From Rhodophyticola porphyridii (GTDB lineage Bacteria > Pseudomonadota > Alphaproteobacteria > Rhodobacterales > Rhodobacteraceae), in the NCBI RefSeq assembly GCF_003688285.1, contig NZ_RCNT01000010.1, positions 62,001-126,000 on the forward strand: DNA of 64,000 bases. The letters are read 5' to 3'. Each line of letters opens with the position of its first letter. Within the stretch, counting starts at the first letter, position 1. Shown here one piece after another: positions 15,100-33,238 of the stretch. The notes under the pieces are model-generated. The model saw nothing but the letters and a program-made list of their open reading frames with translations, was not told the origin of the DNA and did not search any database. Both the position numbers and the translations under genes were made by a program.

Positions 15100-15297
15100 A
15101 TGCGGCAAGCTAACAAGGCGATGCAAGGGTTTTTCGGCGCAAGACGACCCGGCAGAGGGCGCCTGCGTCGGAACCGATTGGTGCAGCTGGAGAGAGAAAG
15201 TTTGAACTCTCTCTTTGAGACGCTGCTGCTCTGGGAAAACCATCTCGCACAACATGATCTGAGTGATCTGGGGTGCGATGATGAGCACTTCGGATAA
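15100..15297 (+). CDS. Small hypothetical protein upstream of mobC
   Basis: A 65-residue basic protein, Arg-rich at the start and helical after (LESLFETLLLWENH-like). It ends 17 bases inside the MobC gene, which would allow translational coupling. Only a weak GGCGG precedes ATG 15100. It may be an accessory relaxosome peptide or a chance frame. Confidence 0.35.
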   Translation: MRQANKAMQGFFGARRPGRGRLRRNRLVQLERESLNSLFETLLLWENHLAQHDLSDLGCDDEHFG

Positions 15298-15709
15298 AGA
15301 TAACAGACACTTAGGCTCTTCGCAGCGCAGCAAGAAGCTGCCGCCCTTCTCCTTGCGCCTGACCTTTGAAGAACGCGCCCGCCTTGAAGAGCTGGCCGGA
15401 AGCGAGCCGCTTGGCTCGTATATCAAGCGCAAGGTCTTCAACGGTAAAGGTGCAGGCGCTCGCCGTGCGCGCTCCCGTAAACGCCGTCCGATCAAGGATG
15501 AGAAGAAGCTCGCGCAAGTCCTGGCCATGCTGGGACAATCCCGCATTGCCAATAACCTGAACCAGCTCGCTAAATCGGCCAATATCGGCACCTTGCCGAT
15601 GATGCCCGATACTGAGCGCGATATCCGCCGCGCCTGCGCCGATGTGGCGCTGATGCGCCGGGAGCTTCTACGAGCCTTGGGACACCGCACGGATAGTGAG
15701 CCGTCATGA
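15281..15709 (+). CDS. MobC-like relaxosome accessory protein
   Basis: 142 residues. The middle matches plasmid mobilization proteins: LRLTFEERARLEELA, then a basic stretch (GARRARSRKRRP) and QSRIANNLNQLAKSAN near the C-terminus, the latter typical of MobC. These bind oriT and help the relaxase. Two in-frame ATGs (15278, 15281) are possible starts. The end overlaps the relaxase start by ATGA. Confidence 0.8.
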   Translation: MSTSDKDNRHLGSSQRSKKLPPFSLRLTFEERARLEELAGSEPLGSYIKRKVFNGKGAGARRARSRKRRPIKDEKKLAQVLAMLGQSRIANNLNQLAKSANIGTLPMMPDTERDIRRACADVALMRRELLRALGHRTDSEPS

Positions 15710-17175
15710 TCCTTAAAGGCTCTCAGCGCGGCGGTGCCAAACAACTCGGGCTTCACCTGCTGAAGACCGAAGAGAACGAACATGTAGAACTGCATGAGAT
15801 TAGGGGATTTGTCGCTGAAGATGTGATCGGAGCGCTGCGGGAAGCTGAAGCCACGGCCAAGGGCACGAGGTGCAGCCAGTATCTCTTCTCTGTCTCTCTA
15901 AACCCGCCCGAGACGGAGAATGTCCGCGTTGAGGTGTTTGAAAATGCCCTCGCTTCAATCGAGGAGAAAAATGGCCTTAGCGGTCAGCCGCGTGTCGTGA
16001 TCTTCCATGAGAAGGAAGGGCGGCGGCATTGCCATGCGGTGTGGAGTCGGATCGATGCCGAGACGATGACGGCCAAGCCGATGTCGTTCTACAAAAACAA
16101 GCTGCGGGAGGTTTCCCGTCAGCTCTACCTTGAAAACGGCTGGCAGATGCCACGCGGTCTGATTGATCCCAAAGATCATGATCCACGCAATTTCTCTCTG
16201 GATGAATGGCAACAAGCCAAGCGCATGGGTCGCCATGCAGGAGACCTGAAGGAGATGATTCAGGAAGCCTGGGCGGTCTCTGATTCGTCTCAGACGTTCG
16301 CCCATGCGCTCGAAGAACGTGGTCTGTATCTCGCCAAAGGGGATCGGCGCGGGCATGTGGCTGTAACATTCGAGGGGGAAGTGATCTCCATCGCGCGTGC
16401 AACCGGGATCAAGGCAAAGGACCTGAAGTCTCGGATCGGTGATCCCGATGATCTCCGCAATGTCGAGGACACACGCAAACGGATCGGCGAAGATATCCTA
16501 CCCCGCATCAAGTCGCATCTGGACGAGGCACGAAGCGTTGCCAAAGCCGAGAAAGAACAACTTGAACAGCGCCGCGAAGAGATGGCGTATGCCCATGCAC
16601 TTGAGCGCACGCGATTAGACCTCGGTCAAAAGGCGCGGGCCGAGCAAGAGGCCCGCAATCGTGCAGAACGGTTCCGCAAAGGCATGGCGGGCTTATGGGA
16701 CCGCCTCACGGGTCAGCACTCCAAGCTCGTAAAGCAAAATGAGATAGAAGCCCTGTGGACGATGCGGAGAGACCAAGACCAGCGACAAGCCGTGATCGAA
16801 GCGCAGCTCAAAGAGCGCCAAACCCTTCAGCTTGAGATCAGAGCGATGCGGCAACGGCACGCGCAAGCCCTGCGAGAGCTTCATTTTGATGCCGCGAACT
16901 ATCGCCTGATGAAGCGCGGGCAAGAGCCGAAAGCGAAGCCGTCCTTTGAGCGGTCCAAACCGCCCATTACAACGCGACAGACGAAACCACAGCCTCAACC
17001 GCAGCCAGAAGCTCAACGGCAGGCTCCGATTAACCAGCACAAGGAGCGCTTGGATCAGCTTCAAGCGAAGTCCATCCGTCCACCGCAGCGGGAGGAACAA
17101 AACCAAGAGCGCTTGCGGCGCTTGCGCGAGAGCAAGCGCAGCCCGTCCGATAAGGGGCCTGAGCTTGAGCGCTAA
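15706..17175 (+). CDS. MobA/VirD2-type relaxase
   Basis: 489 residues. The N-terminal relaxase domain contains the HxH metal motif in GRRHCHAVWSRID (about residues 103-116) and supporting segments VVIFHEKEG and FYKNKLREVSR. The C-terminal half is a long charged coiled coil (LEQRREEMAYAHALERT) with a Pro/Gln-rich linker. It nicks oriT and pilots the strand in transfer. No fused helicase or primase is seen. The start ATG 15706 overlaps mobC. It converges with the reverse transcriptase gene. Confidence 0.85.
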   Translation: MILKGSQRGGAKQLGLHLLKTEENEHVELHEIRGFVAEDVIGALREAEATAKGTRCSQYLFSVSLNPPETENVRVEVFENALASIEEKNGLSGQPRVVIFHEKEGRRHCHAVWSRIDAETMTAKPMSFYKNKLREVSRQLYLENGWQMPRGLIDPKDHDPRNFSLDEWQQAKRMGRHAGDLKEMIQEAWAVSDSSQTFAHALEERGLYLAKGDRRGHVAVTFEGEVISIARATGIKAKDLKSRIGDPDDLRNVEDTRKRIGEDILPRIKSHLDEARSVAKAEKEQLEQRREEMAYAHALERTRLDLGQKARAEQEARNRAERFRKGMAGLWDRLTGQHSKLVKQNEIEALWTMRRDQDQRQAVIEAQLKERQTLQLEIRAMRQRHAQALRELHFDAANYRLMKRGQEPKAKPSFERSKPPITTRQTKPQPQPQPEAQRQAPINQHKERLDQLQAKSIRPPQREEQNQERLRRLRESKRSPSDKGPELER

Positions 17176-17189
17176 TTCATTCTAGTATT

Positions 17190-18824
17190 CTAAGGCTCTT
17201 CATCGCCCTGGATATCTGCAAACAACTCATCGATATCGATGTCTGGGCCATCAAAGTCTTCGTCTTCATCATCGTCATATCCGTAGCGTGTTCTACTAAT
17301 CGCCCGTTTATCTCGACGTTTCATGAGCTCGATGTGGTCGTTGAAGTCGATTAGGCGAATGCCACGCTGCGCCAGATGATCGAAATGATCGGAATATAGC
17401 CCTGAAAAGGCTGCCTTTGAGAAGCCTTGCGAGCGCGCCACGAGGTTGACAAGCCAGTTCGCATCAACAGTAGATAGCGGCGCACCGAGACCAAGCTTTG
17501 GCTTTCGCCTCAATTTTCCGTCCACATGCGCTTGCACAAGGAGAGCTCGAACGTGTGCGTTTCTGGACTTCGCGAGCTCTTCAATCATCTGGATAGAGAT
17601 TTCGATATCACACACAATCATCATCCAAACCATCCAAAGCGTTTCGTGATGGTGGTTTAGAGCCAAGCTTCGCTGGACAATGATTTCTGCAACTGACTTC
17701 CATCCTTCAACATCAATTTCACGATCACGAGCTTTGCGTTTCGCAAGAAGAAGACAGGCGTAGTCGATAGCGTGGGGATGTTTGAGAACAATCCGCTGGA
17801 TGTTCTGTTCGACAAAATCCCATTGCCTATTCTCATAAACGCGTGCCTCGTCGAAGGAACGTAATAGAATTTTTATAGGACTGTCTGACCCGATTTCCAC
17901 GGCAGCAGAAACCGCTTCGGATATCGCCCTTTCATACTTCTCATGCCCAGCAGTAGGAGACCAGAAATGCATGTGATCCCGGAGCCGTTGCGCCCAAAGG
18001 TCGTTGATAGGCTCCAGGCTGGAGAAAATTCTTGTCTTCTGATCATTGAGGTTCAGCTCATATATGGCAAGAACCTCTCTGAGGTGAGATAGAACGGACT
18101 GAGCTTCGTGTTCGGTGCGTAAACCGATATAGTAATCATCCACATGCCGCACAGCGCCTACAATCAGTGCGCCCACAGCCTGACTTAATTCGTGATCTAT
18201 CTTTGAGAGTATGAATTCAGCAATTAAGCGATAGGCGTCAGGGCCAACCAATACACCACGGGTGTTGCCGCGTTGGCCATTCCGAACAAAGAAATCTAGT
18301 GCATTGAAGGTGTTTGCAGATGAGTCTTTCGTCACATCGCTTTTCGACTGTTCAATTCCATGCGCTGCCCAGGCAATCGAGTGAGTATAAATGCTTGGAA
18401 AACATTGCGCGATATCCGCCTTAAGGATGAACGGCGCATAACTTAGGTTCTTTGATGCATGCTTCGAAAGTTCCGAGAGCGAGGGGACCTTGACGGCTCG
18501 CTCATCGTCCTCACCCATCAGCTTCGGTTTGCCTATCGAGTATTCGGACAGCGCGAAGTTGTGTTCGAATTTTGACCAGTTCTTCCAAATGAAGCTCGAT
18601 GTATGAAAGTATGAAACAATATTTGGCGTACCGAAGAAGCGCCGACTCCCGTCATGTTTGGTTCCACTGTACCTCACATACTCGGTTTTTCGTTCGTGAT
18701 ACTTCTCTCCGTCAAGCTGTCCCACAATGCCGTGGAAGGCTCGCTTGGCATCCTTCGACACGAAGCAAGGCGGTAGCGTTTCTGGGTATAGACCTGAATT
18801 TATTAAACTAAATCGCGTTTTCAT
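17190..18824 (-). CDS. Abi/UG-type reverse transcriptase, candidate antiphage protein
   Basis: About 544 residues from ATG 18824, chosen because GLYPETLPPCF near that start matches the N-terminal signature of defence-associated reverse transcriptases; an in-frame ATG at 18854 adds ten residues. Neither has a clear ribosome site. Reverse transcriptase motifs, numbered from 18854: LKADIAQCFPSIYTHS (Asp147), GVLVGPDAYRLIAEFILSKID (about 200-220) and the catalytic HVDD (237-240) in place of the usual YxDD. The C-terminal 250 residues are helical and end in a very acidic tail (DDDEDED). There is no maturase, protease or second reverse transcriptase, which argues against a group II intron, DGR or DRT3 pair. 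Inference: an abortive-infection type polymerase; its RNA partner, if any, is unknown. Confidence 0.75.
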   Translation of the reverse strand: MKTRFSLINSGLYPETLPPCFVSKDAKRAFHGIVGQLDGEKYHERKTEYVRYSGTKHDGSRRFFGTPNIVSYFHTSSFIWKNWSKFEHNFALSEYSIGKPKLMGEDDERAVKVPSLSELSKHASKNLSYAPFILKADIAQCFPSIYTHSIAWAAHGIEQSKSDVTKDSSANTFNALDFFVRNGQRGNTRGVLVGPDAYRLIAEFILSKIDHELSQAVGALIVGAVRHVDDYYIGLRTEHEAQSVLSHLREVLAIYELNLNDQKTRIFSSLEPINDLWAQRLRDHMHFWSPTAGHEKYERAISEAVSAAVEIGSDSPIKILLRSFDEARVYENRQWDFVEQNIQRIVLKHPHAIDYACLLLAKRKARDREIDVEGWKSVAEIIVQRSLALNHHHETLWMVWMMIVCDIEISIQMIEELAKSRNAHVRALLVQAHVDGKLRRKPKLGLGAPLSTVDANWLVNLVARSQGFSKAAFSGLYSDHFDHLAQRGIRLIDFNDHIELMKRRDKRAISRTRYGYDDDEDEDFDGPDIDIDELFADIQGDEEP

Positions 18825-19119
18825 ATGGCCAACCATAGCGAACTGCATAGGCATGCCGCAACAAATTCTCGCGTTGCAGCGCCTAAGGCCAGACGAGAAC
18901 AGCCACGATTGAATTCATGCCCAGGATGCCAGCGACGTTTTCCCACAAGCACGCTTTTTACTCCGAATGCGCGTTCACGAGTCCTCCTCGCCACCTTCTG
19001 ATTGAGCTGTAAACCTTCTCCCCGAACCATCAGGGCCTTCATGAGCCATGGATGATTTGTGCGCGGGCCGAAAGGCCCTGAACGGTTCGGGGCCTCCTGA
19101 CACTCAATAGGAGGTTACG

Positions 19120-19299
19120 ATGAGACTCATCACACGCTTCGACGCAGCATCACGCAGCACGCCTGAATTGCTTACGCTTCACACTGAGGCATTGCGGGCA
19201 TTCGCTTCGGCTGCACGCGGATCGATTGAACGCAGCAATGCGCTTGCATCGCTGCACAATATTGAGGCCGAACTGGCGGTTCGCTCGCTAGGTCTTTGA
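19120..19299 (+). CDS. Small conserved-looking hypothetical protein
   Basis: 59 residues, beginning MRLITRFDAASRSTPELL and mostly helical. It has a strong ribosome site, AGGAGG, ending four bases before ATG 19120, and a factor-independent terminator directly after its stop, so it looks like a real independent gene. A GGGCC-GAAA-GGCCC hairpin lies in its leader (19065-19078), and CAGGGCCT at 19031-19038 could pair with its right arm instead, so a leader-switch is possible. Function unknown. Confidence 0.7.
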   Translation: MRLITRFDAASRSTPELLTLHTEALRAFASAARGSIERSNALASLHNIEAELAVRSLGL

Positions 19300-19308
19300 G
19301 GCCGAAAA

Positions 19309-19342
19309 CGCGGCTGGTCCGAAGGCCAGCCGCGAATTTTTC
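19309..19342 (+). terminator. Factor-independent terminator after the 59-residue gene
   Basis: A perfect 9-bp stem, CGCGGCTGG (19309-19317) with CCAGCCGCG (19326-19334), is followed by AATTTTT. A run of T on the opposite strand after the stem suggests it may also stop transcripts of the convergent ardC gene. Confidence 0.85.
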
Positions 19343-19348
19343 TTATCC

Positions 19349-20248
19349 CTATGCGGCGTTACTCTCTTCCACGATCATAGGCTGCAAGCCATGCAGAAAG
19401 TCTGCCGCGCGTTGCGCATGGGCGGCCGCTGAGAAGATAGCGCGCTTGTCTTCCTTCAGGACCTTCAACCAACTCTGGATGTAGGCGGCATGGTCGGAGC
19501 CTGGCTCAGGCGTCAGTTCCAGATCGGCACACAGAAATGCCGCGCCAAGTTCGGCGACCAGCTCTTCGCGCGCATAGCCTTCATCACCCCATGTCTTGCG
19601 CCCGAATTCGCGGTCTAGACGGCTCTTGTGCTTCGTCCAATGAGTCAGCTCATGGGCTAGCGTTGCATAATAGCTTTCGGGGCTGTGGAACGTCTCGAAA
19701 TGTGGCATCTGCACATGATCGCTGCCACCGCTGTAGTATGCGCGGTTTCCGCCGTGGCGAATGTCTGCGTCCGTGCTTCTGAAAAACTCTTCGGCGTGAT
19801 CGATGCGCGTGGCAGGATCAATCGCGGGCTCGGGCTTGGAATAGTAGTGCTCGGGCAAGCCTTCGATCTGCTCGACATTGAACACGCTGTAGCCCTTCAT
19901 GAAGGGAATTTTGCGCTCTTCCTCCGATCCGTCGTCTTGCTCTTCGGTCTTGGTGATCGTGTTGGCGTAGACCACCAGATTGCCGCGCTCGCCCTTCTTG
20001 ACGTGTGCGCCTAGTTCCTTTGCTTGTTTGAAGGTCATCCAGAACGGGGAGAGATAGCCTGCCTCAACAGACGCGCCCCAAAGCATCAGGATATTGATTC
20101 CGTTGTACGGCACGCCGTTATGCCGCAAGGGCTTGGTGATCTTGCCTTCAAGGTTTCCGCTGCTCCATGGCTTGAGCCAAGTCAGTTCGCCTTGCTCCAG
20201 ATCGGCAATAATCTTGTCGGTCACTTTCTGATAAATGTCTTGTTTCAT
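19349..20248 (-). CDS. ardC: ArdC-family antirestriction protein
   Basis: 299 residues. An N-terminal ssDNA-binding domain (MKQDIYQKVTDKIIADLEQG ... NGVPYNGINILMLW) is followed by a zincin-like metalloprotease domain with HELTHW and a downstream Glu-containing YAREELVAELGAAF. ArdC proteins protect incoming transfer strands from restriction. Placement in the mobilizable element fits. An inverted repeat sits 25-42 bp upstream of its start. Confidence 0.88.
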   Translation of the reverse strand: MKQDIYQKVTDKIIADLEQGELTWLKPWSSGNLEGKITKPLRHNGVPYNGINILMLWGASVEAGYLSPFWMTFKQAKELGAHVKKGERGNLVVYANTITKTEEQDDGSEEERKIPFMKGYSVFNVEQIEGLPEHYYSKPEPAIDPATRIDHAEEFFRSTDADIRHGGNRAYYSGGSDHVQMPHFETFHSPESYYATLAHELTHWTKHKSRLDREFGRKTWGDEGYAREELVAELGAAFLCADLELTPEPGSDHAAYIQSWLKVLKEDKRAIFSAAAHAQRAADFLHGLQPMIVEESNAA

Positions 20249-20272
20249 TGGTTTTTCCCTTTCTTAGGTAGT

Positions 20273-20290
20273 CGGTTGCGCATGCAACCG
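20273..20290. promoter_or_regulatory. Inverted repeat upstream of ardC
   Basis: CGGTTGC (20273-20279) and GCAACCG (20284-20290) form a 7-bp inverted repeat around GCAT. The place just upstream of the ardC start suits an operator or a leader hairpin. No regulator is assigned. Confidence 0.4.
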
Positions 20291-20430
20291 GACTAGGCCC
20301 GCGCCAATGAGCGGGGGGACGGCCGTCCAGACCGAAAGTCATGGATGTGGTGCGGGCGCAGGCGTAGCCGAGCCACGGGCCATGGCTTTCGCCCGAAGTT
20401 ACAACGGAGGGCTTGGTCTTGACGGAGGAC

Positions 20431-20537
20431 GGGCCTGCAAGGCCCCAAACAAAGAAGACAGATCAGCCGTTCACGGCTGGCGATAGATGCGCAAGGGATG
20501 GAAGCCGCATGGCCGAGACCGACAACGTCGGGCTCGG
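20431..20537 (+). other. Hairpin-rich leader region between ardC and the HNH gene
   Basis: Three clean hairpins lie in about 110 nt: GGGCC/GGCCC (20431-20445), CAGCCG-TTCA-CGGCTG (20464-20479) and a two-part stem CCGAG/CTCGG plus CCGAC/GTCGG around AAC (20513-20537). The 400-bp gap from 20249 to 20650 has no credible gene. It may be a small RNA or a leader of the HNH gene. Confidence 0.35.
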
Positions 20538-20613
20538 TTCACGACAGCCCGCCCCGAAGGATGCGCCAAACACTTGTATTGTGGACATCCAGTTCACAGG
20601 ACTCCTTCTGCCA

Positions 20614-20643
20614 TTGGAACTCAATACAAAAAATGTTCATAAT
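20614..20643 (+). promoter_or_regulatory. Sigma-70-like promoter for a probably leaderless HNH mRNA
   Basis: TTGGAA (20614-20619), 18 bp, CATAAT (20638-20643). The expected transcription start, 6-8 bases later, falls on or next to the ATG at 20651, and no ribosome binding site precedes that ATG. Both facts point to a leaderless transcript. Confidence 0.5.
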
Positions 20644-20650
20644 CATGGGC

Positions 20651-21379
20651 ATGAAGAGACCCGAGCAGCTCGTCGAGCGATCCTACTCAATGATGATTGC
20701 CAGCTATTGGCTGGCTAGATGTGGCGTTCGCGAAAACGAGAGCGCGGCTGCGCCGCCCGCTGCGCTTGGTGTCACAACCTGGAAGGCGGCCTACGACAGT
20801 TTCCTTGACGCTATGGGTGACGGTCGCACGCCCAGCCAATTCCGAAACAGCATGAAGAACGCTCGCGACACCTTCGATATCCTGTTCGACAACGGACGGA
20901 TCGGCTGGGTTGATCGTGAAGGTCAGCAACCTTCCCTAGGCTCAAGCTTCCAGCGCATTCATGAAGAGTGGCAGGGACGCCCGGACGAAGAACTGGAGAA
21001 ATTCGTCCTTGGGCTTCAGGCCGGCATTCCCGTTGCAGCAGACCGGGAAGCGCGAAGTCCCGAGGCAAGAACCGAGGGCGGTAAAAAGGTTTACATCTCT
21101 GTTAGACGTGAACGTGATCCCAAACTGAGGGACGACGCACTTTCAATCCATGGGCTCGACTGCATGGCCTGCGGATTCAATTTCGAGCGCGCCTATGGCT
21201 CTTGGGGAAAGGGCTTCATCGAAGTTCATCACGTCGTGCCGCTTGCAGAGGCTGGCAGGTCGGAAACCAACCCCGCCACGGATTTGATTGTTCTTTGCGC
21301 GAACTGCCACCGGATGGTGCATCGCAAGCGAGGTGTTTGCCTGTCTCTCGACGAGTTGTGTGCACAGATCAAACACTGA
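20651..21379 (+). CDS. HNH endonuclease, McrA-like
   Basis: 242 residues from ATG 20651. The C-terminal HNH domain reads CMACGFNFE, then EVHHVVPL, then DLIVLCANCHRMVHR, giving both zinc-type CxxC pairs and the catalytic His. The N-terminal part (1-150) is helical and unassigned, as expected for a DNA-recognition module. The gene lies directly upstream of the cytosine methyltransferase on the same strand. It could be an extra restriction arm or a modification-dependent nuclease; a full EcoRII-like enzyme in the same cassette makes it non-essential for that system. Confidence 0.78.
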   Translation: MKRPEQLVERSYSMMIASYWLARCGVRENESAAAPPAALGVTTWKAAYDSFLDAMGDGRTPSQFRNSMKNARDTFDILFDNGRIGWVDREGQQPSLGSSFQRIHEEWQGRPDEELEKFVLGLQAGIPVAADREARSPEARTEGGKKVYISVRRERDPKLRDDALSIHGLDCMACGFNFERAYGSWGKGFIEVHHVVPLAEAGRSETNPATDLIVLCANCHRMVHRKRGVCLSLDELCAQIKH

Positions 21380-21514
21380 AAGCAAAATTTGGCACTCATA
21401 CATCATCTGGGGCAGTGACTATGTGGAACCCCACTATATCGTTTATGTTCTCTTGATGTTCTTTTGCCAACATGTCAGAATGATTCCCAGAGCAGAAAAG
21501 AGGCAAACACCCCG

Positions 21515-22759
21515 ATGAACGAGTTTTCCAGACTGAGACAGGAAGCAGGTATGACCATCCCCGAAGCAGTAGAAGCGCTGGGATACTGCGAGCGCACGAT
21601 CTACCGGTGGGAAAATGGCGACGGCGCACCGCGTAAAGCTGCTCTTGAAATCCTGCGTCAGGCCGCCGCCGGCAAGCCGCAAGCATCCGGAGAATTCAAA
21701 TTCATCGATCTGTTTGCAGGTATCGGAGGCTTGCGAAAAGGATTCGAGCCGATTGGTGGCCGGTGTGTTTTTACGTCTGAGTGGGACAAGTACTCGGTGC
21801 AGACCTACCTAGCAAACCATACCTGCGATCACGAAGTGGTTGGAGATATCACGAAAGTGCCGGTCGAGAGCATTCCTGCCCATGACGTGCTGCTTGCCGG
21901 GTTTCCGTGTCAGCCGTTTTCGATTGCCGGTGTCTCCAAAAAGAACGCCCTTGGCCGTCAACACGGCTTTCGCTGTGATGCGCAAGGTACGCTTTTCTTC
22001 GATGTCGCCCGGATCATCGAGTATCACCAGCCGAAGGCGTTTTTGCTCGAAAATGTGAAAAACCTTGTCAGCCATGATCGCGGCAAGACCTTTGATGTTA
22101 TCCGCCGCGCCCTAACCGAGGAACTTGGCTATAACATTCAGTACCGCGTCATTGATGCGAAGGGCTTTGTACCCCAGCACCGGGAACGCATCTTTATTGT
22201 CGGTTTTCGTGAAAACAACGATTTTGACTTTGATGCGCTCGATATTCCTGATCCGCTGTCAGGCCCAAGGCTTGAGAGCATCCTGCATCCTGAGGACGGT
22301 TCGGAAGCGCCGGAAGACCGTTTCACTGCCGGCAGTAAGGCAAAAGTCATCGATAAATACACGCTCTCCGACCACCTGTGGGACTACCTGCAAAACTACG
22401 CTGAAAAACATAGAGCCAAAGGGAACGGGTTTGGCTTTGGTCTTGTCGGGCCAAGCGATGTCGCGCGCACCCTGTCGGCGCGGTATTTCAAGGACGGATC
22501 AGAAATCCTTGTCAAACAGCGCGGCAAGAAAAACCCGCGCCGCCTGACGCCTCGGGAGTGCGCACGCCTCATGGGTTTTGAAGAGCCCGGTAGCAATCAG
22601 CCCTTCGAAATCCCGGTCTCGGACACGCAAGCCTACAGGCAGTTCGGCAATGCGGTCGTTGTTCCGGTTGTCGAGGCCGTGGCGCGCCACATGCACCCCT
22701 TCATTCTCTCCGAAACGCCTGCGCTGGAAGAGGCAGAGGAAGACCGGGCTGTTGCCTGA
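21515..22759 (+). CDS. DNA cytosine-5 methyltransferase, Dcm/M.EcoRII type, with N-terminal HTH
   Basis: 414 residues. Start ATG 21515 follows AAGAGG; the frame is open for 17 more codons upstream. Residues 1-50 form an XRE-like HTH ([20 protein letters not shown]), as in methyltransferases that repress their own promoter. The catalytic domain has [10 protein letters not shown] (SAM binding), GFPCQPFS with the nucleophilic Cys, LLENVKNL and [11 protein letters not shown]. The [15 protein letters not shown] segment closely follows Dcm, predicting methylation of the inner C of CCWGG. It overlaps the Vsr gene by eight bases. It protects self DNA from the EcoRII-type nuclease two genes on. Confidence 0.92.
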
Positions 22760-23210
22760 CATTGTCGATAAGGAAACCCGCAGCCGGATGATGTCAGGTA
22801 TCAGGGGCAAGAATACAAAGCCCGAGCTTGTTATCCGCAAAGGCCTGCACGCAAGAGGCTTCCGGTTTCGTCTGCATTCATCAAAGGTTCCGGGCAAACC
22901 CGATCTTGTTTTGCCCCGCTATCGTGCGGCTATCTTTGTCCATGGATGTTTCTGGCATAGCCATGACTGTCATCTGTTCAAGATGCCGTCCACAAGGCCC
23001 GACTTCTGGAAGGCCAAGCTTGCGCGCAACCGCGAGCGGGACGAAGAGATTCGCAAATCCCTGCTGGATGCTGGCTGGCGGGTATTGGTGATCTGGGAAT
23101 GCGCACTGAAAGGCAAATACCGCATCAATCTGGATGAGTTGTTCACGAAGGTCACTGCCTGGATCAGGGGAGATGACCTTGAAGGCGAGATCGCCGGGAG
23201 GCCCGTATGA
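22752..23210 (+). CDS. vsr: Very-short-patch repair endonuclease Vsr
   Basis: 152 residues from TTG 22752; the resulting [20 protein letters not shown] start fits the family and GAGGAAG lies about ten bases upstream. Signature segments: [38 protein letters not shown] and [10 protein letters not shown]. Vsr nicks T:G mismatches that arise by deamination of 5-methylcytosine in CCWGG, which matches the neighbouring Dcm-like enzyme. It is sandwiched by overlaps with both the methyltransferase and the nuclease gene. Confidence 0.93.
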
Positions 23211-24442
23211 AGTTCGGAATTCTGGCCGATTTTTTTGAAGGAGCTGGCGCGAAATACCTTACAGAAGTTGAGATCAACAATGCGCGCTCCAACCAGCATG
23301 AGTTTCAGGGTGTCAGTGCTTTCCGCCAGTTCCTTGGAACGCCCGAGGAAAAGATCACATATCCGGCAACGTTTTTCTGGCTGACCGATGAAGAGGACGA
23401 AGAGCCGGTTTCCATGCAGGCTTTTTGCACCTGGAGCGATGTGCGCAGGAACAACCCTGACCGATCTGCTGAGTTTCATCTTTACTACGCCGCAGAATCC
23501 GAAGCTGTCGTGCATCAGGCGCAAGCAGGTGATCTGCTTCTCATTGCACGAAAAAAGAATGACGATGGCCTGCTTGTTATCCTTTGCCCTGCGGATACAA
23601 CAATCACTCAGCAACTTCTCTGGCTGTTTGGACTGGACCTCGTGGGCACGAGGGCGAGTGCAAAGGTCCTTGCTCCTGATGAGAGCATCAGGCTCGGTTT
23701 TGCGGCAAGAGCCGTGCTGGATACTTTGGGCATTGATCTCGAAGAGCCGGAACCGGACGCCCTTGAAATCCTCCTCGACCGCTACGGCCTTGGATTCCCG
23801 CCGACAGCCGAATTCTCACAATTTGCCCGCGATACGGCTGAAGCCGCTGATCCGGTTGATGATCCGGATCAGGCACTGGTCGACTGGATGGATCATGAAG
23901 AGGCCCTGTTTCGACACCTTGAACGTCACATCGTGGCGGATCGCCTGAAAAAGGGCTTTGCTGACAAAGCTGACGTGGATGTTGACGGATTCCTGAAATT
24001 CTCTCTTGGCGTCCAGAACCGCAGAAAATCGCGTGCTGGTTGGGCCTTTGGTCACCACATTGAAGCCGTTTTCCACGCGCACGCGATCCAGCACAAACGT
24101 GAGGCAACAACTGAGAAACGCAACGGACCGGATTTCCTGTTTCCCGGTGAAGCCGAATACCATGATGCCAGCTTTAACACCGCATTGCTGACGATGCTCG
24201 GGGCCAAGACTAGCTGCAAGGATCGCTGGCGACAGGTGCTGGCAGAAGCGCACAAGATCGAGGAAAAGCACCTCGTCACGTTGCAGCCGGGTATTTCAGA
24301 AGCTCAGACTGCTGAAATGCAGGCCGAAAGACTGCAACTTGTGGTTCCAAGGCCGATATATGGCTCCTACCTGCCAGCCCAGCAAGACTGGCTGATGGAT
24401 GTATCCGGTTTTGTTGATTTGGTAAAAGCAAGGCAAGGGTAG
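23207..24442 (+). CDS. EcoRII-type restriction endonuclease
   Basis: 411 residues, close to the 404 of EcoRII. The start overlaps the Vsr stop by ATGA. The C-terminal domain carries the family hallmarks: VQNRRKSRAG, GPDFLFPG, YHDASFN, LTMLGAKTSCKDRWRQVL and KHLVTLQPGIS. The N-terminal 180 residues correspond to the allosteric effector-binding domain of this type IIE enzyme. It is predicted to cut at CCWGG when two sites are engaged. All parts look intact, so the cassette is probably functional. Confidence 0.9.
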   Translation: MKFGILADFFEGAGAKYLTEVEINNARSNQHEFQGVSAFRQFLGTPEEKITYPATFFWLTDEEDEEPVSMQAFCTWSDVRRNNPDRSAEFHLYYAAESEAVVHQAQAGDLLLIARKKNDDGLLVILCPADTTITQQLLWLFGLDLVGTRASAKVLAPDESIRLGFAARAVLDTLGIDLEEPEPDALEILLDRYGLGFPPTAEFSQFARDTAEAADPVDDPDQALVDWMDHEEALFRHLERHIVADRLKKGFADKADVDVDGFLKFSLGVQNRRKSRAGWAFGHHIEAVFHAHAIQHKREATTEKRNGPDFLFPGEAEYHDASFNTALLTMLGAKTSCKDRWRQVLAEAHKIEEKHLVTLQPGISEAQTAEMQAERLQLVVPRPIYGSYLPAQQDWLMDVSGFVDLVKARQG

Positions 24443-24512
24443 TGACAGCTGCAAGGTCAACCCGATAGCGTGGACGAGCCTTGTGATGGATTCTCACTTT
24501 GTCCTGAGCGGT

Positions 24513-26366
24513 CTACTGCAACGGGAAGAGGCCAAAGCGTCCTTCATCTTCCCAGCCAGAAAAATGTTCGACCCGAGAGCCCAACTCAACATCTGATGGC
24601 GGGTCAGTGTTTTCAATGATAATGACCTGTTTGTTTCCGGACAGAGTGAGCAGATGCTGGTAAAATTTACTGTTGAGGTTGGTATCCCTCAAGTCGTCTT
24701 CCGAACCTTCAGGCTCCTTGTACGAAAGCAATGGGGAATCCAATATGACGAAGCCAGGATGCGGTAGATCGTTGGCAACGCAATAGTCCAGCAATGAAAG
24801 CGAAAAAGCAGTCTGGGTTACGGCGCGAAGCCCTTTGCCAAACGACGTTCTGGGCTTGCCTGAAATCACGAGGTCTTTGGCCTCAAGATCGAAATGAACC
24901 CTTCGGGTTCCCGGAAACTCCCAGCGTTCGAGCAATGTCTGAACCATCGCAGAAAACGGCTCGACCATTGATGCAGTCAGCCGATAACTGTCCGAAGAAT
25001 CGTTGGTTTTCTTGGCAGTAAGAGCCTCCAAAGCTGCTCGGCGTTCGCCCAAATCACCAAGGCTGTCAAAGAGGCCAATTGCTTCGCGAACATTGGCACG
25101 TTTGTCGGCAAGTTCCTTATATGAGGCGCGTAGTTTTCGCAGGTCCGGAGAAACGACTGCCTCAATCTCTTGCGACAACTCGCCGAGGCGTTCATCAATC
25201 TTCGGGAGGGTTCTCTCAAGGGCTTTGGCTTCTTTGTCCATAATCTTGATTGTGCCGGTCAGTTCCCTTTCCTTGTCCTCAATTTTTTGTATTTCGGATG
25301 CAGCCGCTTTAACGACGATGTCAACATTTCCATCGCAGATCGCATCGGGGTCATGATGTTCCGGCAGTGCCCCGCAAATGGGACAAGTCTCGACCTCTAG
25401 GGTAGAAAAAATATTTCCGGCTTCTTGAATTCCGACAAGACGTTCCTGATCAGAGTTGTAGTGTTGCTTCAGCAGTCTGAAGCGTTCTAAAAGTGTAGCA
25501 ATCTCTGCAAAACGCGCGCGGTTGGTTTCCCTTCTGGCCATCAGTTTGCGACGATTTGACGATAGCTCCCTGAAGTGGGCTTCAGAAGTGGAGAGTTGTT
25601 CTGAACGCACTGCAAGTGCAGAGTCCAAGCGCTCTTCCTGCTTGGAAAGCTCGTCTTTCGAGCCGGAGATTTTTGCGATGCGCTTTTGCGTGTCAGCAAT
25701 AAGCTGGTCCAAAAGTTCAAGCTGAGCTTCAGCCTTTTGTTCGGCAGGGGTTCGCTGGGATTGCGCGACAAGTGCCGAGTCATCAACACCGGTCAATAGC
25801 ATTCGAAAAACAGAGGTGTTGGCAGTATCCGCCGTATAGTTACCGTCGGAAAGCGGGGAGCGCTTTTGAATGATTTCCTCTTCATTCACCACGACGAGGC
25901 GAGCAAGATTACGGAAGCTCAGATTTTGAGTATCGCCCCGTGCATTCTTTTTGACCTTTCTTCCGCTGAGCCCGATCTTGGACAGGAGGAACGCAGAAAG
26001 GTTGTCCTCGTCGCGTTCGCTGTGGGTCTCAGAAAGGATGCGCCCTTCTTCTTCGGGCAAAGCATCGGAATAAAGCCCTTCAAAAATCTCAAACGCGCCA
26101 CCATCCATGCTCCGTCGTACCGTGTGTTCGCTGCCATCCTCGAAAGTCATCGCCAACATTGCCTGACCGTAGCCGCTGGATTGAGGGATGTCGGTCAGAG
26201 GCCCCTTTCCCCCGAGCATGAAGTCTATCGCTTCAACGACAAAAGATTTTCCGGTGTCCGAAGCGCCGTAAATCACGTTCAGGCCCGACTGAAACGACAC
26301 AATCGCGGGTTCCCGGTCTGGACCGTGAAAGGACAGGCTACTGATCTGAAATCCAAGATAATTCAT
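24513..26366 (-). CDS. ABC-3C system SMC-like ATPase (DUF3732-like)
   Basis: 617 residues. P-loop GASDTGKS (about 34-41) follows the start; the middle is two long coiled coils separated by a Rad50-like hook CPICG (about residue 330); the C-terminal part holds a Walker B (GFVILDSPLL). This is the architecture of the ATPase of ABC-three-component conflict systems. It is the last gene of a minus-strand operon and starts in a TAATG overlap with the middle-component gene. Inference: senses DNA ends or invading DNA and licenses the effector. Confidence 0.85.
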   Translation of the reverse strand: MNYLGFQISSLSFHGPDREPAIVSFQSGLNVIYGASDTGKSFVVEAIDFMLGGKGPLTDIPQSSGYGQAMLAMTFEDGSEHTVRRSMDGGAFEIFEGLYSDALPEEEGRILSETHSERDEDNLSAFLLSKIGLSGRKVKKNARGDTQNLSFRNLARLVVVNEEEIIQKRSPLSDGNYTADTANTSVFRMLLTGVDDSALVAQSQRTPAEQKAEAQLELLDQLIADTQKRIAKISGSKDELSKQEERLDSALAVRSEQLSTSEAHFRELSSNRRKLMARRETNRARFAEIATLLERFRLLKQHYNSDQERLVGIQEAGNIFSTLEVETCPICGALPEHHDPDAICDGNVDIVVKAAASEIQKIEDKERELTGTIKIMDKEAKALERTLPKIDERLGELSQEIEAVVSPDLRKLRASYKELADKRANVREAIGLFDSLGDLGERRAALEALTAKKTNDSSDSYRLTASMVEPFSAMVQTLLERWEFPGTRRVHFDLEAKDLVISGKPRTSFGKGLRAVTQTAFSLSLLDYCVANDLPHPGFVILDSPLLSYKEPEGSEDDLRDTNLNSKFYQHLLTLSGNKQVIIIENTDPPSDVELGSRVEHFSGWEDEGRFGLFPLQ

Positions 26367-26866
26367 TAAACACTTCCTGCTGCACCGGATTCATCCTGAA
26401 ACTCAGACACCCAGTTTTCCAGTAATTGGTCCATTTGCTTGTCGAATTCCTGATCGTCCAATTGATCGGAATACTTCGCTAGCCAACTGGCTCGGTTCAT
26501 CAACTGCCGGATATAGGACGACTGCAATGCATCAACAAAAAATTTGGAGGATTCCCCTGCACGATAGAAAATACCACTTTCTGTCGCCACTTGTTGCACC
26601 AGTTCACGGGAGATCATCAGGCGTAGCGCGGCGTGCACTGACTTACGGCGAACCTGCGTGATCGGGCTGACAATTGGAGTCGCAGGGTGCAGATCAGGAG
26701 GGCCGTCCAGCACACTTGTCCTGACGATGAGATAGTCCAATGCTGTCAATCGTTGAATATCCAATGCTTTAGGGAAGCAAGCATACAGGTTCAGGACTGC
26801 GCGAATGCCGGTTTCCAGGGGCCCGTTGAAAGGGAGGTCTGGCGACAATCGGTCTACTTTTTCCAT
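26366..26866 (-). CDS. ABC-3C middle component
   Basis: 166 residues. FNGPLETGIRAVLNLYACFP near the N-terminus, YLIVRTSV and LHPATPI match ABC-3C middle components, which are winged-HTH-like adaptors between ATPase and effector. It overlaps the effector gene by 13 bp upstream and the ATPase gene downstream, so the three are translated together. Confidence 0.78.
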   Translation of the reverse strand: MEKVDRLSPDLPFNGPLETGIRAVLNLYACFPKALDIQRLTALDYLIVRTSVLDGPPDLHPATPIVSPITQVRRKSVHAALRLMISRELVQQVATESGIFYRAGESSKFFVDALQSSYIRQLMNRASWLAKYSDQLDDQEFDKQMDQLLENWVSEFQDESGAAGSV

Positions 26867-27948
26867 GTCAGCCTCCCATCATTTGCCAACTGATGGCATA
26901 TTCCTCTGCGGTCTTTTGGAAGTGCGCTTTTGTTCAACGGGTGAGCATCAAGAGCCAGCGACTGTGCGGAGTCAGTTACTGCGACGACCCGTGCATACCC
27001 ATCCGCATGGTCACTTTCACAAGTGTCTGCGACGCCGTCATATATTTCATCTTGGAGGCTTTCGAATGTTCCTGGATCGGCCTTTTCCCGGACAAAAACA
27101 CGCAGGGATTCTGCGTGATAGAATGCCTCCCGAGAGCGTCCGAAATGCTCCTTCAGGTTGGACCAGGCGTTTAGATCGGTAGCGCATGAAATTGATTGGC
27201 TTTTGTGATCCGCATAGGCGTCAAGAAGTTTTTTTGTATAGGCGATTTCATGGGGCTCAATCTCGTCGGGCGGTGATTCCGCAACCGGCCTGGAAGGCAA
27301 GCCGCCTCCGAACCTACCTGGATAATACGGTGTCTTTTTGTGTGCTTCGATCACGCTTCTTGGAGCGGGTGCCGAGAATATCGAAAAGTCAAAATCATTG
27401 ACGTAGGTTTCAAAGTCGCCGGTTAGTTCGACGCTCTGCGTAGTCGTGATCTTGTCGGCGATCATCTTCTGCCATTTTTCGATCACCTCGGTCTTGAGAT
27501 TGTCGCTGTTCGCCAAGAGTAAATCGAGGGTGGTCGACGGGCCTTTGGGGGCGATGAATGCGCATGACCTCGGAGCCACATAAACCCCGTTGAAGGAGTG
27601 CCATAGGATTTTGCCGATCTCCGGCGCGACAACGCCAAAGCTCAAAGGGTTTTTGTAATGCTTGCACTGATGGTTGTCCCATACTCCCAAGAGCTTCTTG
27701 TCATCTGTGAAGCCCGCGACATCGATGCCTTTGTCGCCTGGCCCGGTTGGTCTCATCACGCTGAAATATTCATCCTTGAGTGAGTGAATCCATTCGTCGA
27801 TGAAGGTCTCCCAAACGCCAGAATCGTAAGTCTGGATTACAAGAACCGGGTCAATCTTGGGACCATTCTCGAACTCTTGTGCCGTCAGAATCGTGGCCGA
27901 TGCTAGATCTTTGACGGCATTTTCGAAATCGAGGGTCGTGGCTTCCAT
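26854..27948 (-). CDS. ABC-3C effector with restriction-endonuclease-like N-terminus
   Basis: 364 residues. The N-terminal part shows GDKGIDVAGF followed by LGVWDNHQCKHYKNPL, i.e. an acidic residue and a QxK-like element as in Mrr/PD-(D/E)xK nucleases; EVIEKWQKMI follows. The C-terminal part (about 240-364, with LNAWSNLKEHFGRSREAFYHAESLRVF and a terminal QLANDGRLTW) resembles the conserved C-terminal domain that docks effectors to the complex. Inference: the DNA-cutting toxin of the system. First gene of the operon; its promoter should lie in 27950-28050. Confidence 0.7.
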   Translation of the reverse strand: MEATTLDFENAVKDLASATILTAQEFENGPKIDPVLVIQTYDSGVWETFIDEWIHSLKDEYFSVMRPTGPGDKGIDVAGFTDDKKLLGVWDNHQCKHYKNPLSFGVVAPEIGKILWHSFNGVYVAPRSCAFIAPKGPSTTLDLLLANSDNLKTEVIEKWQKMIADKITTTQSVELTGDFETYVNDFDFSIFSAPAPRSVIEAHKKTPYYPGRFGGGLPSRPVAESPPDEIEPHEIAYTKKLLDAYADHKSQSISCATDLNAWSNLKEHFGRSREAFYHAESLRVFVREKADPGTFESLQDEIYDGVADTCESDHADGYARVVAVTDSAQSLALDAHPLNKSALPKDRRGICHQLANDGRLTWKK

Positions 27949-28049
27949 ACGTGCATGATCTCAAAATACGGTTCGCGAAAGCTTCATATTGCCACCATAT
28001 CAGGTGTTCCGGCAACAACAATCTACTAAAGATAGAAGAATGCTGGTTC

Positions 28050-28525
28050 ACCATGGACGTCCATTGATGGCACCAATGCGGCCTGTCAAGGGCCCTGTCG
28101 TCGGCGGGGCAATCGTGTTCCATCTTCGGCAAGATGGCGCCATCCAATCCGCGCAGGGTTGGTCTCCATGAATTGGTCTGGATGAAGTCCTCATGGGGGT
28201 ATCGGTGGGAGCTCGAAGGCTCCCCTGATTGGTGATCGAACGGCCAGTCGTTCGTGCATGGTTCGGTGCAGGTGGAGAGGCACGTCTCCAAGTCCCACGA
28301 GTGGGTTTCAAGGGGCGCGATAGCCCCTGATCTTCCTGAAAGGATCGATGGGTGCAGGAAGAGCGAAGTCTCCTGCGAGTGTTTGACCGACGATACGGTC
28401 TGCTGGCTCTGCAATGGGTTCAACACCCTGGAAGAGCCATGGCCGGAGGGATGCAACGGGAGCGCGCAGCGGGCTCCCTTGCCAAGATTGCGGTGTACTA
28501 CACCGCACATCTTGCGGTTCGCAGA
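28050..28525 (+). ncRNA. Candidate large structured RNA (tandem hairpins)
   Basis: This gap between the ABC-3C operon and the 28624 gene has no credible protein gene but can fold into at least twelve successive helices. Clear ones: 28120-28137 (7 bp), 28144-28162 (7), 28201-28229 (11, bulged), 28237-28254 (6), 28273-28290 (6), 28294-28305 (4), 28311-28328 (6), 28329-28346 (6), 28354-28376 (8, bulged A), 28385-28400 (5), 28404-28439 (7 plus inner 4), 28453-28482 (10, bulged C), 28483-28514 (14, bulged C). Three stems contain T-G pairs that are U-G wobbles on the plus strand but would be A-C mismatches on the minus strand, which favours plus-strand transcription. No T-run terminator ends it, so it may be a long leader of the next gene or be processed. 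I cannot match it to a named RNA class. Confidence 0.65.
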
Positions 28526-28623
28526 TAACGTCTTTCTAGCCCTGCAACAAAAATGTGGATGAGTATCCTATGCTGCCATGCACATACGCGCAGAGAAATG
28601 CTCTCGATGGTATGATCTGGCTC

Positions 28624-29133
28624 ATGGCCAAGAGACCCCCGTCAGAGTGCGAGCCCTTTACACAAGCAATGAAAGACCGAGTGAACGAGCTTTCCGAGAG
28701 AACGGGCTGGGGTGCGACGGCTGTCCGCAATCATATCGAGAGGGCGAAGCTCCCAGGGTGGGAGCATGCCTCACAAGGTCGCGTGAATGCGATCATGAGC
28801 GGCCAGTCTCAAGCCACAGTGGTCAGCACCGTTTACAATGCTGTCATTGCCGTGTTGGAGGATGCTTCACGCTCGGGCCTCGCGCTTGATACGCACCAGA
28901 AAGATGTCCGCCGGGTGTTGGTTGATGATGGCTTTGCGTCTGGCGTTCAACAGCTCTTGGATCGTTTCCACCATCTATCCACGATGAAGGCGTTGGCAGC
29001 GCTTGGAGCTCCCTCCGATCTATCCCACATCACCGTCGCGCGCGTAGCAAGCGGACAGCAAAAGAGCCTCAAGAAGAAGCATTATAATTTCCTCTCTTCC
29101 GTCCTCGAAAAATTAAGGAACGGTAAACTTTAG
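28624..29133 (+). CDS. Unknown protein downstream of the structured RNA
   Basis: 169 residues from ATG 28624 (MAKRPPSECEPF); in-frame alternatives at 28555 (GTG), 28570 and 28612 have no better ribosome site. ELSERTGWGATAVRNHIERAKLPGW may form a helix-turn-helix; the rest is helical with a basic end (KSLKKKHYNFLSS). Not recognised. Immediate adjacency to the hairpin array suggests an RNA-binding or RNA-controlled protein, but this is inference. Confidence 0.55.
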   Translation: MAKRPPSECEPFTQAMKDRVNELSERTGWGATAVRNHIERAKLPGWEHASQGRVNAIMSGQSQATVVSTVYNAVIAVLEDASRSGLALDTHQKDVRRVLVDDGFASGVQQLLDRFHHLSTMKALAALGAPSDLSHITVARVASGQQKSLKKKHYNFLSSVLEKLRNGKL

Positions 29134-29202
29134 ACCGCATTTTCCTCAAATTTTATCTATTTACATAATATTAAACATACTCTTGTAGTCTTAACGGAAA
29201 TT

Positions 29203-29237
29203 AGTCGCGAGGACTCCGCTCAAGAGAGACCGCGACT
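29203..29237. promoter_or_regulatory. Hairpin in the AT-rich leader of the acidic-protein gene
   Basis: AGTCGCG (29203-29209) pairs perfectly with CGCGACT (29231-29237). It follows an AT-rich stretch (29140-29200, with TAATATTAAA) that looks promoter-like. The helix lies about 75 bases before the next start codon. Confidence 0.35.
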
Positions 29238-29311
29238 GTGTGGGGATAGGTCACTGCATGAACGTGCAAGCCCGTCTCGAACCCAACAAATGACAGGGAC
29301 TTCAGGCATGT

Positions 29312-30238
29312 GTGGCCGAAGAAAAGGATATGGCAGGGGGATCAGCTCAAGAGCTTTTCAGGGATAATATCGGATCGATTGTCGATCCGGGTACAGAGAT
29401 ACTCTTTTCTGAAAATATCGCCGATATGGGGATCGTTCTCGATCCCGCATTGAGCGCACACGATTTAGATGCGGCGAGTTCACCGAACCGCGTGATCACT
29501 GCACGTGCGGCCTCAGAAGCAATCGAGAACCACGACGGGATTATTTCCGGGAGCCGTGATGGTGTGCGCAGTGGTGTTGCCGAGCGCGTGGCCGATGCCC
29601 GAGAAAGCAAAGCGGCTGTTTCAGAGCGCGACTCTGAGCGCGCAAATGATACAGCCTTCTACGTAATGCTTTTGGCAGAGAACGGTGTCGGGGGCTTTAT
29701 TTCTGGACAGTTCTTTGGCGGAATGGACGACGATGAAGCGTTAAGCTTCGGTCGTCGCATGGAAGAAGAAACAGGTCGATCACTGGAAGATTGGGCTGAA
29801 GAAATCCTTGGCCCTGAGGCGGCGGAGCGACATGACGGTGAAAGCGAGGCTGACTACATCAGACGGGTCGGTCGCGATGTACTCGACGCCATCACCGACG
29901 ATGACGGAGACCTCCTGCCAGAATATGCGGACAGCGCAATCGGAAACTTCTTTCTTGGTGAGTACGAATACCAGCGCATCCTCGGTGAAGTTATGCCACA
30001 GGTTCAGGCTGCTCGTGCTTCAGGCATGACCATCGAACAAGCAGAGGCAGAGTTGCGTGCTGAAGGCGTTATGGATGGGGGCCTAAGAGTGGAGTTTGCG
30101 GCGGCTGTTGCCGCAGAAGGTGACGATCAGGAACTGTACATAGCTTTGGAGGATGATCGCGAGCTCGGATCAGATACAGATTTGGGTACGACTGTTGATG
30201 TCGCTGCCAACGCCTCTGCACTCGATATGTTCTCTTAA
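29312..30238 (+). CDS. Unknown acidic protein
   Basis: 308 residues from GTG 29312 (ATG 29330 is an alternative). Strongly acidic and Ala-rich with many Asp/Glu, few basic residues and a central ERANDTAFYVMLLAENGVGGFISGQFFGG segment. No membrane helix or signal peptide is obvious. The last bases overlap those of the convergent gene. It could be a DNA-mimic or a secreted substrate, but no family is recognised. Confidence 0.55.
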   Translation: MAEEKDMAGGSAQELFRDNIGSIVDPGTEILFSENIADMGIVLDPALSAHDLDAASSPNRVITARAASEAIENHDGIISGSRDGVRSGVAERVADARESKAAVSERDSERANDTAFYVMLLAENGVGGFISGQFFGGMDDDEALSFGRRMEEETGRSLEDWAEEILGPEAAERHDGESEADYIRRVGRDVLDAITDDDGDLLPEYADSAIGNFFLGEYEYQRILGEVMPQVQAARASGMTIEQAEAELRAEGVMDGGLRVEFAAAVAAEGDDQELYIALEDDRELGSDTDLGTTVDVAANASALDMFS

Positions 30239-30771
30239 CTACCGTCTGCTAAGGCCGGACCTTCAAGGCTTGCCTGCTGAGTCTGACGCAAAATACCTAG
30301 TTGCTCCGCAACTTGAGGAATTGCATCCATGCCTTCTTGAAGATTGAGATTGATCTGACCTTCAGGCCCCTGAAAAACAAGGTGGCCGTAATGAAACGTT
30401 AAACCTGTTGCTGCTGTTCCTGCGTTTGTTCTTGTGAACGTCGCAGCGTCAATGCCGAGGTTTGCAAATTGCTGCTCAAAATGAGCTTCAACTCTTCCCA
30501 TTAGAACTTCGCTATCATCCCGTGTCAGTACATCATCACCAATATGGAATAGAACTGCGACGCTTTGGTTTTCCGCCGCATATTGCCGTGCAGCGTTTGC
30601 CTGCCGGGAAAACTCACAAAGCTCCGCGTCCATTGCCCCGCAATCATAGCTAGCAGCAGCCGGGGTTGTATCCTCAGCCGAAGCCGCAAGTGGGATAGCA
30701 GCGGTCAGGCCCGCAAGCGTGGCCGCGAACGCGCGTCCCGCAAAATTCGATCTGAGCTTTTCTGCTACCAT
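30235..30771 (-). CDS. Exported hypothetical protein
   Basis: 178 residues from ATG 30771, preceded by AAGGGA. The N-terminus is a typical signal peptide (basic start, AFAATLAGLTAAIPLAASA, cleavage near AEDTTP). The mature part has two Cys (YDCGAMDAELCEF) that could form a disulfide and ends helical. Its tail overlaps the convergent acidic-protein gene by four bases. Periplasmic; function unknown. Confidence 0.55.
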   Translation of the reverse strand: MVAEKLRSNFAGRAFAATLAGLTAAIPLAASAEDTTPAAASYDCGAMDAELCEFSRQANAARQYAAENQSVAVLFHIGDDVLTRDDSEVLMGRVEAHFEQQFANLGIDAATFTRTNAGTAATGLTFHYGHLVFQGPEGQINLNLQEGMDAIPQVAEQLGILRQTQQASLEGPALADGS

Positions 30772-30833
30772 GAGCCTCAATCCCTTGGTCGAAGCGGGCT
30801 TTCATCCAGGGTCAACCCGTTGAAAACGCTTGA

Positions 30834-30851
30834 GAAAAAGGACCCTTTTTC
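30834..30851. repeat. Left copy of an 18-bp inverted repeat pair
   Basis: GAAAAAGGACCCTTTTTC; its exact reverse complement occurs at 30964-30981. Each copy is itself nearly palindromic. The pair lies directly upstream of the resolvase gene, where res or inversion sites are found. Confidence 0.6.
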
Positions 30852-30963
30852 TTGATTTTCAAGATCAGAATGTGGTACGTTGCGTTTTGTAAGTTAACTC
30901 ACTGATTTTCAGTGATTTTGGCGGGCGAGAAGACCCACTATGGCAGGCCACGAGGCCAGAACC

Positions 30964-30981
30964 GAAAAAGGGTCCTTTTTC
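30964..30981. repeat. Right copy of the 18-bp inverted repeat pair
   Basis: GAAAAAGGGTCCTTTTTC, the reverse complement of 30834-30851, with 112 bp between them. The intervening DNA also holds the small dyads CTTGA-TTT-TCAAG and CACTGA-TTT-TCAGTG. No coding capacity is seen between 30781 and 31063. Confidence 0.6.
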
Positions 30982-31063
30982 CAATCGACGGGTGTGAGCG
31001 GTCGTCTCGGGTGAATCGGGACGTGTCGTTTGACTCAACCCATTGATTTAGAAAGGACACTTC

Positions 31064-31507
31064 ATGCCAAAGACAATTGGATATGCGCGTGTATCAACGG
31101 CGGAACAAAACCTCGCCTTACAAGTCTCTGCGCTTAGGGCAGCGGGCTGCACGGAAATCTTCGAGGAGCTTGGCGTCTCGGGGGCGCAAGCGGAGCGCCC
31201 GGCCCTAGAGGCGGCGCTCGGTGCGCTTGAACGCGGCGATACGCTGATTGTGTGGAGACTTGATCGGCTGGGCCGCTCATTGCGGCATTTGATCGACCTC
31301 AACGACGAATTAACCGCGCGCGGCTGTTACTTCGAAAGCCTGACTGAGAAGATCGACACATCTTCTGCCATGGGCAAATTCGTATTCCATATCCTTGGTG
31401 CCGTCGCAGAGCTTGAACGTGAAATCATCCGCGAGCGGACACTGGCAGGCATGGCCGAGGCCGCGAAACAAGGCCGCTTGCCCGGAAGACCGAGGTTGGC
31501 AGCGTAG
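31064..31507 (+). CDS. Serine resolvase/invertase lacking the C-terminal HTH
   Basis: 147 residues. The catalytic domain is complete: IGYARVSTAEQ with Ser11, GDTLIVWRLDRLGRSLRHLI, SSAMGKFVF and ELEREIIRERTLAGM. Family members of the Pin/Hin/Tn3 type continue with a roughly 40-residue HTH, but here the protein stops at GRPRLAA, and no HTH remnant is obvious in the following bases. It may be inactive, or may act with a partner. Confidence 0.85.
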   Translation: MPKTIGYARVSTAEQNLALQVSALRAAGCTEIFEELGVSGAQAERPALEAALGALERGDTLIVWRLDRLGRSLRHLIDLNDELTARGCYFESLTEKIDTSSAMGKFVFHILGAVAELEREIIRERTLAGMAEAAKQGRLPGRPRLAA

Positions 31508-31563
31508 GCAAAAGGGAAATAGAAAAGTTTGCGTCGGCCAATCGACAAATGATATATTAGTTG

Positions 31564-32034: not shown

Positions 32035-32036
32035 AG

Positions 32037-33227: not shown

Positions 33228-33238
33228 AGTTTGGAACT

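Follow-up and report, generated by a model that had tools for sequence, protein, structure and literature searches.

Analysis of a 64,000-nucleotide stretch of the Rhodophyticola porphyridii genome (hereafter the window) revealed that the lone reverse transcriptase (RT) gene considered here encodes a DRT6 (UG12) defence RT, a type that has already been described, and that very probably acts as a single-gene anti-phage polymerase carried as cargo of an integrated mobilizable island (Table 1). The analysis established the family, the intact catalytic residues, the fold and the genomic setting of the protein, as well as the absence of a shared partner gene and of a conserved flanking RNA sequence. 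DRT6 belongs to class 1 of the UG/Abi RTs.

Table 1 Features of the RT locus, with positions counted from the first nucleotide of the window.
Feature	Position	Strand	Basis
Mobile defence island, 23.6 kb, carrying the RT gene	15183..38774	.	Empty site in congener G1227, junctions, lower G+C
DRT6 (UG12) RT, 544 aa	17190..18824	-	PADLOC Drt6, 9wy8 fold match, model secondary structure
RT domain, ~residues 1-285; helical domain, ~290-505; C-terminal tail, ~506-544		-	Model secondary structure
HVDD catalytic motif, residues 227-230	18135..18146	-	Alignment and residue check
Catalytic Asp D137, KADIAQCF motif (motif A)	18414..18416	-	Invariant in alignments
AISRTRYGYD, residues 508-517, with proposed priming Y514/Y516	17274..17303	-	RYGYD in 13/13 close sequences, differing synonymous codons
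Acidic tail end, predicted disordered, residues 518-544	17193..17273	-	pLDDT <50 for 517-544

The RT gene is an intact frame. Starting from the first ATG of the same open frame would extend it to 17190-18854 and the product to 554 residues, but the codon matching position 18824 is ATG in nine of the 12 close relatives and GTG in one, while the ends of two (L010 and L011) were cut arbitrarily. As ATG or GTG recurs at the matching codon, 18824 is probably the right start, and the sequence comparison favours the 544-residue product over the one beginning at 18854. Alignment and a residue check showed that the catalytic residues D137, D229 and D230 are all retained in the window protein, D137 being invariant in alignments A1, A2 and A3. 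The sequence-only reading of this DNA had described an open frame with an HVDD active site, an N-terminal signature and a helical C-terminal half, and these traits were borne out: HVDD is present with D137 upstream of it, the N-terminal block ETLPPCF shows little or no variation among 12 sequences, and the C-terminal half is predicted to be all helical in the AlphaFold2 model.

Comparison with profile collections revealed a best PADLOC match to Drt6 (E 2.7e-149, 496 bits, profile positions 2-510 of 511), and as RVT_1 also exceeds its Pfam gathering score (37.3 vs 29.6), the identity as an RT is not a matter of chance. The PADLOC runner-up was Drt4 (E 2.3e-84, 282 bits), followed by UG30, UG31, UG14 and AbiK. 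A search of NCBIfam with the window protein gave no Drt6 match, and the Drt4 model of that collection scored 200.9 bits, under its cut-off of 450, so that the protein falls outside DRT4 by this measure. PHROGs and a phage collection returned partial RT matches only. Weak matches to the RT core were likewise obtained with the group II model TIGR04416 (37.6 bits) and with the retron model St85 (22.3 bits), the sole retron model to match, but both scores fall far short of the curated thresholds, 300 and 235 bits, respectively.

The closest solved chain by sequence is 9wy8 (phmmer E 2.7e-33), the PDB title of which names a hexameric DRT6. Two AlphaFold2 models were compared with known folds, a first one built from 12 sequences (pLDDT 72.6) and a better one built from 22 (pLDDT 88.0), and 9wy8 was the top match of both, with Z 29.3 for the former and Z 39.6 for the latter (rmsd 2.2, 485 of 495 residues aligned). 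For the better model, DRT4 (Z 32.7 and 32.0), UG15 (29.5), AbiK (26.0) and Abi-P2 (22.8) scored lower, while DGR, group II and retron RTs reached Z values of 15.8 at most. In a quick tree of 73 rows, which comprised neither 9wy8 nor retrons, relied on SH-aLRT support only and carried a long-branch warning, the window protein groups with its close relatives in a branch of 13 sequences (SH-aLRT 100), which joins L025, L026 and L027 (99) inside a branch of 38 rows (97). This 38-row branch also contains the DRT6-type loci, whereas AbiK, AbiP2-like and Drt3b-like RTs as well as four RTs of group II introns fall outside it. The 14 duplicates, near-duplicates and fragments (L012-L015, L023, L024, L028, L043, L050, L057, L064, L068, L076-L078) were kept out of the tree and of the tail counts given below. 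An origin from a group II intron or a retron is thus refuted by profile scores and fold, and for group II introns by the tree as well, and the probability that the gene belongs to any of these groups or to the DGRs is practically negligible. The assignment to the defence-associated Abi/UG-type RTs, as proposed from the letters of the window, is upheld by the PADLOC match, the 9wy8 fold and the position in the tree. Two members of the 38-row branch, L044 and L045, score higher with the Drt4 than with the Drt6 model; judged by these profiles, the boundary between PADLOC Drt4 and Drt6 is blurred and the names overlap, while the choice for the window protein itself is clear.

The residue preceding the catalytic Asp pair is His in all 13 close sequences, a count that overstates the frequency of His since the searches leading to L001-L012 and L022 were seeded with peptides spanning HVDD; it is also His in L026 and L027 and Leu in L025, all three of which came from a search with a profile that had itself been derived from HVDD proteins. 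Elsewhere among the 38 rows, the position is occupied by Tyr, Phe, Asn, Ala or Leu, and only one of the 12 DRT6-type loci for which the PADLOC model was the sole means of detection (L015-L020 and L034-L039) has His, namely L015, which is the same protein as L007. The His that had drawn attention to this RT is therefore real, but it is not peculiar to it, and its presence in all 13 close and two of the three next-nearest sequences rules out HVDD as a unique change. On the alignments, HVDD is instead a mark of an alphaproteobacterial DRT6 branch. A literature search for HVDD together with reverse transcriptase gave no match. As the Tyr245 that precedes VDD in AbiK is described as stacking on the nascent DNA (PMC9508834, available text), the replacement by His227 in the window protein may change how the DNA product is held.

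The genes adjoining the RT gene, a convergent relaxase gene and an ArdC gene, are not known RT partners, in agreement with the sequence-only reading. All-vs-all blastp of the frames of at least 70 aa at 13 loci (156 in total) recovered 78 of 78 RT pairs, which served as control, and 0 other shared genes, so that a hidden partner gene was rejected as a candidate. The missing partner thus stands as an observation, both next to the gene and among the 13 loci, but it is no peculiarity, as DRT6 is already presented in the available text of a review as a single-gene, DRT4-related system activated by phage ORF55 (PMC13213688).

A cis-encoded upstream ncRNA serving as template, as for DRT2 or DRT9, was considered as well, and the 295 nt upstream of the gene do form a slightly more stable fold than shuffled versions (z -2.1), with a hairpin at about 19020-19092 on the + strand reaching z -3.8. 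This reading is opposed by the lack of an Rfam match in 12000-26000 and by blastn among the flanks on either side of the 13 loci (at most 800 nt upstream and 600 nt downstream), which gave 0 matches compared with 194 for the coding sequences, a comparison that addresses sequence conservation only. In addition, the hairpin DNA has no counterpart at the 12 further close DRT6 loci, and a Tritonibacter mobilis plasmid carries a 69% relative of the stretch 19053-19339. This relative lies between MobC/partial relaxase and ArdC and comprises half of the hairpin stretch together with the small frame behind it; a search of 12 kb of the plasmid found no DRT6. Since part of the hairpin DNA occurs in a plasmid region in which no DRT6 was found and is lacking at the 12 loci, we concluded that it belongs to the backbone of the mobile element. 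The region 18825-19119, proposed earlier as a place to look for a conserved RNA, hence holds a strong hairpin, yet one that is part of the element. An upstream ncRNA specific to the RT gene was discarded, as far as sequence conservation can tell, on account of the unconserved flanks, the Rfam result and the backbone origin of the hairpin, and a DRT with an ncRNA template of this kind is very unlikely here. As a separate observation, the hairpin and the small frame of about 59 codons that it precedes lie within 19020-19299 (+ strand), and a terminator-like hairpin follows the frame at 19309-19334.

The element that carries the gene is inserted at the 3' end of a tRNA-Leu(GAG) gene, which forms the right junction. 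In congener G1227 the site is empty, and the sequence flanking the island on the left, up to 15195, directly adjoins that on the right, from 38769 onwards. The junctions have only TGGTGC in common, and a k-mer search for a long att repeat found none. G+C is lower inside the island, the contents of which include MobC, a relaxase, ArdC, a coupling protein and a serine recombinase. Further cargo comprises an EcoRII-like restriction set at 21464-24442 (+), made up of an HTH-Dcm methylase, Vsr and a nuclease with the EcoRII C-terminal domain, and a Lamassu-type system at 24513-27948 (-) with LmuB (E 1.4e-203), an ABC-3C middle component and LmuA (E 4.1e-113). An HNH endonuclease at 20498-21379 (+) weakly matches type IV restriction enzymes. 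Within 28555-33891, the frames 28555-29133, 29312-30238, 31561-32034 and 32037-33275 matched no Pfam family, and the last three matched no PADLOC model either. The company of other defence genes fits a defence role of DRT6 without showing one. Carriage on a mobile element would also suit a gene that has decayed or rides along silently, with no part in defence, as would a simple promoter scan that found no clear promoter and a single same-strand site, within the gene, compared with a mean of 1.9 in shuffles; however, the frame is full-length, catalytic and family-invariant positions are all kept, and motif codons vary among relatives while the residues stay constant, which makes a passenger of this kind highly improbable.

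By homology to the solved hexamer, the window protein would form an oligomer. To judge from DRT4, AbiK and published statements on DRT6, it would need no RNA template and would make untemplated ssDNA, which would remain attached to a tyrosine of the protein, accumulate in the infected cell and stop growth (abortive infection). The trigger would be a phage DNA-binding protein, as ORF55 is for the published DRT6, and the priming hydroxyl may be provided by the C-terminal YGYD, with the acidic end behind it remaining flexible.

Among known systems, the DRT6 of 9wy8 resembles the window protein in its whole-length fold, its single gene and its acidic C-terminal tail with Tyr, but the two share only 22-23% identity, and 9wy8 has YVDD in place of HVDD and an EEYFDSD-like stretch in place of RYGYD in the tail. 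In DRT9 (UG28) and DRT3b (UG8), the tyrosines that prime lie in a loop or tail at the C-terminus, and the Y-x-Y-acidic arrangement of DRT9 resembles YGYD; however, DRT9 has an ncRNA template and DRT3 uses an ncRNA together with a second RT, neither of which was found at the window locus. DRT4 (UG15, 9vdo/9vdv) shares the RT and helical domains and the single gene but matches less well in fold and NCBIfam profile. Its template-independent synthesis, which we count as a further probable likeness, is described in the available text of two reviews as yielding random ssDNA, primed by its own tyrosine and protected by ORF55, while the same texts call the product chemistry of DRT6 unresolved (PMC13213688, PMC13314766). 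The relevant matches of a literature search on DRT6/UG12 were reviews and a classification paper only. AbiK and Abi-P2 likewise possess the RT and helical domains, and their tyrosine-primed untemplated DNA (PMC9508834, available text) may be counted as a likeness; they differ by their lower Z values and by the N-terminal position of the priming Tyr.

The source of the primer is where the C-terminal tail becomes relevant. The last 50 residues of the window protein contain 19 D/E, so the very acidic tail remarked on in the sequence-only reading is present, but it is a trait of the group, 25 of 38 DRT6-branch rows carrying 14 or more D/E over their final 50 positions vs three of 35 other RTs. A tail Tyr with at least three acidic neighbours occurs in 31 of the 38 rows vs six of the 35 others, and elsewhere in the same proteins in 137 of 1785 sequence windows. 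The 35 include L053, which was also counted in the tree and the end of which is unreliable owing to in-frame stops: this locus (3845-5545) is a DRT4-like RT on a viral contig with eight mixed in-frame stops after about 4890, as after a frameshift. By count, such a Tyr is lacking in L008, L010, L018, L034, L035, L049 and L054, although L008 and L010 carry RYGYD. An acidic tail with an aromatic last residue, mimicking the tip of SSB, was rejected as a candidate: seven of the 13 close sequences do have F, W or Y as their last residue, but that of the window protein is P.

All 13 close sequences carry RYGYD unchanged, with differing codons and within a variable surrounding region, and we propose that its tyrosines Y514 and Y516 may serve as the DNA primer. 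The available texts on DRT9 report priming from the C-terminal Y496 and Y498, with a loop that turns into the channel upon dNTP binding (PMC12483538, PMC12489045), and for DRT3b from the C-terminal Y666 of 667 residues (PMC13174585, available text). Confidence in the better model is good to about residue 510, partial for 511-516 and pLDDT <50 from 517; alignment of this model to substrate-bound DRT9 (9vma) ends on the pair model 515/DRT9 496, the last pair being the only one reported, and this end in a segment of middling confidence can be taken as suggestive only. It is conceivable, and we put it forward tentatively, that in DRT6 of the alphaproteobacterial branch YGYD starts the DNA by moving into the catalytic centre, in the manner of DRT9 and DRT3b, that the disordered acidic segment mimics DNA or shuts the channel until infection, and that His replaces the product-stacking Tyr.

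Alternatively, DRT6 might prime from its N-terminus like AbiK, for example from Y52, in which case the C-terminal motif would help to assemble the oligomer or plug the DNA channel, a reading that we consider possible, though short of probable. N-terminal primers are known from the available text on AbiK (Y44) and Abi-P2 (Y61) (PMC9508834), Y52 is also invariant among 12 close sequences, and the acidic Tyr tail is missing in L034, L035 and L018, so that a primer common to the whole family would sit elsewhere. Against this, the position of Y52 is not conserved across the wider DRT6 set, the equivalent stretch of 9wy8 being RFS, and YGY is the more invariant Tyr pair, within an otherwise variable C-terminal region. 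L034 and L035 have the top Drt6-model scores among genome loci, yet no acidic tail or comparable Tyr motif; both carry FVDD and possibly represent a DRT6 branch with another primer.

Overall, an odd-looking RT is explained as an ordinary, intact DRT6, with HVDD marking a branch that is well defined. The primer candidate, a pair of tyrosines within the invariant motif of the tail, is the one new lead. DRT4, DRT9, DRT3b and AbiK differ, among other things, in where their primer comes from, and if priming from YGYD is true, the untemplated (class 1) RTs would have shifted their priming site between tyrosines at the N- and the C-terminus.
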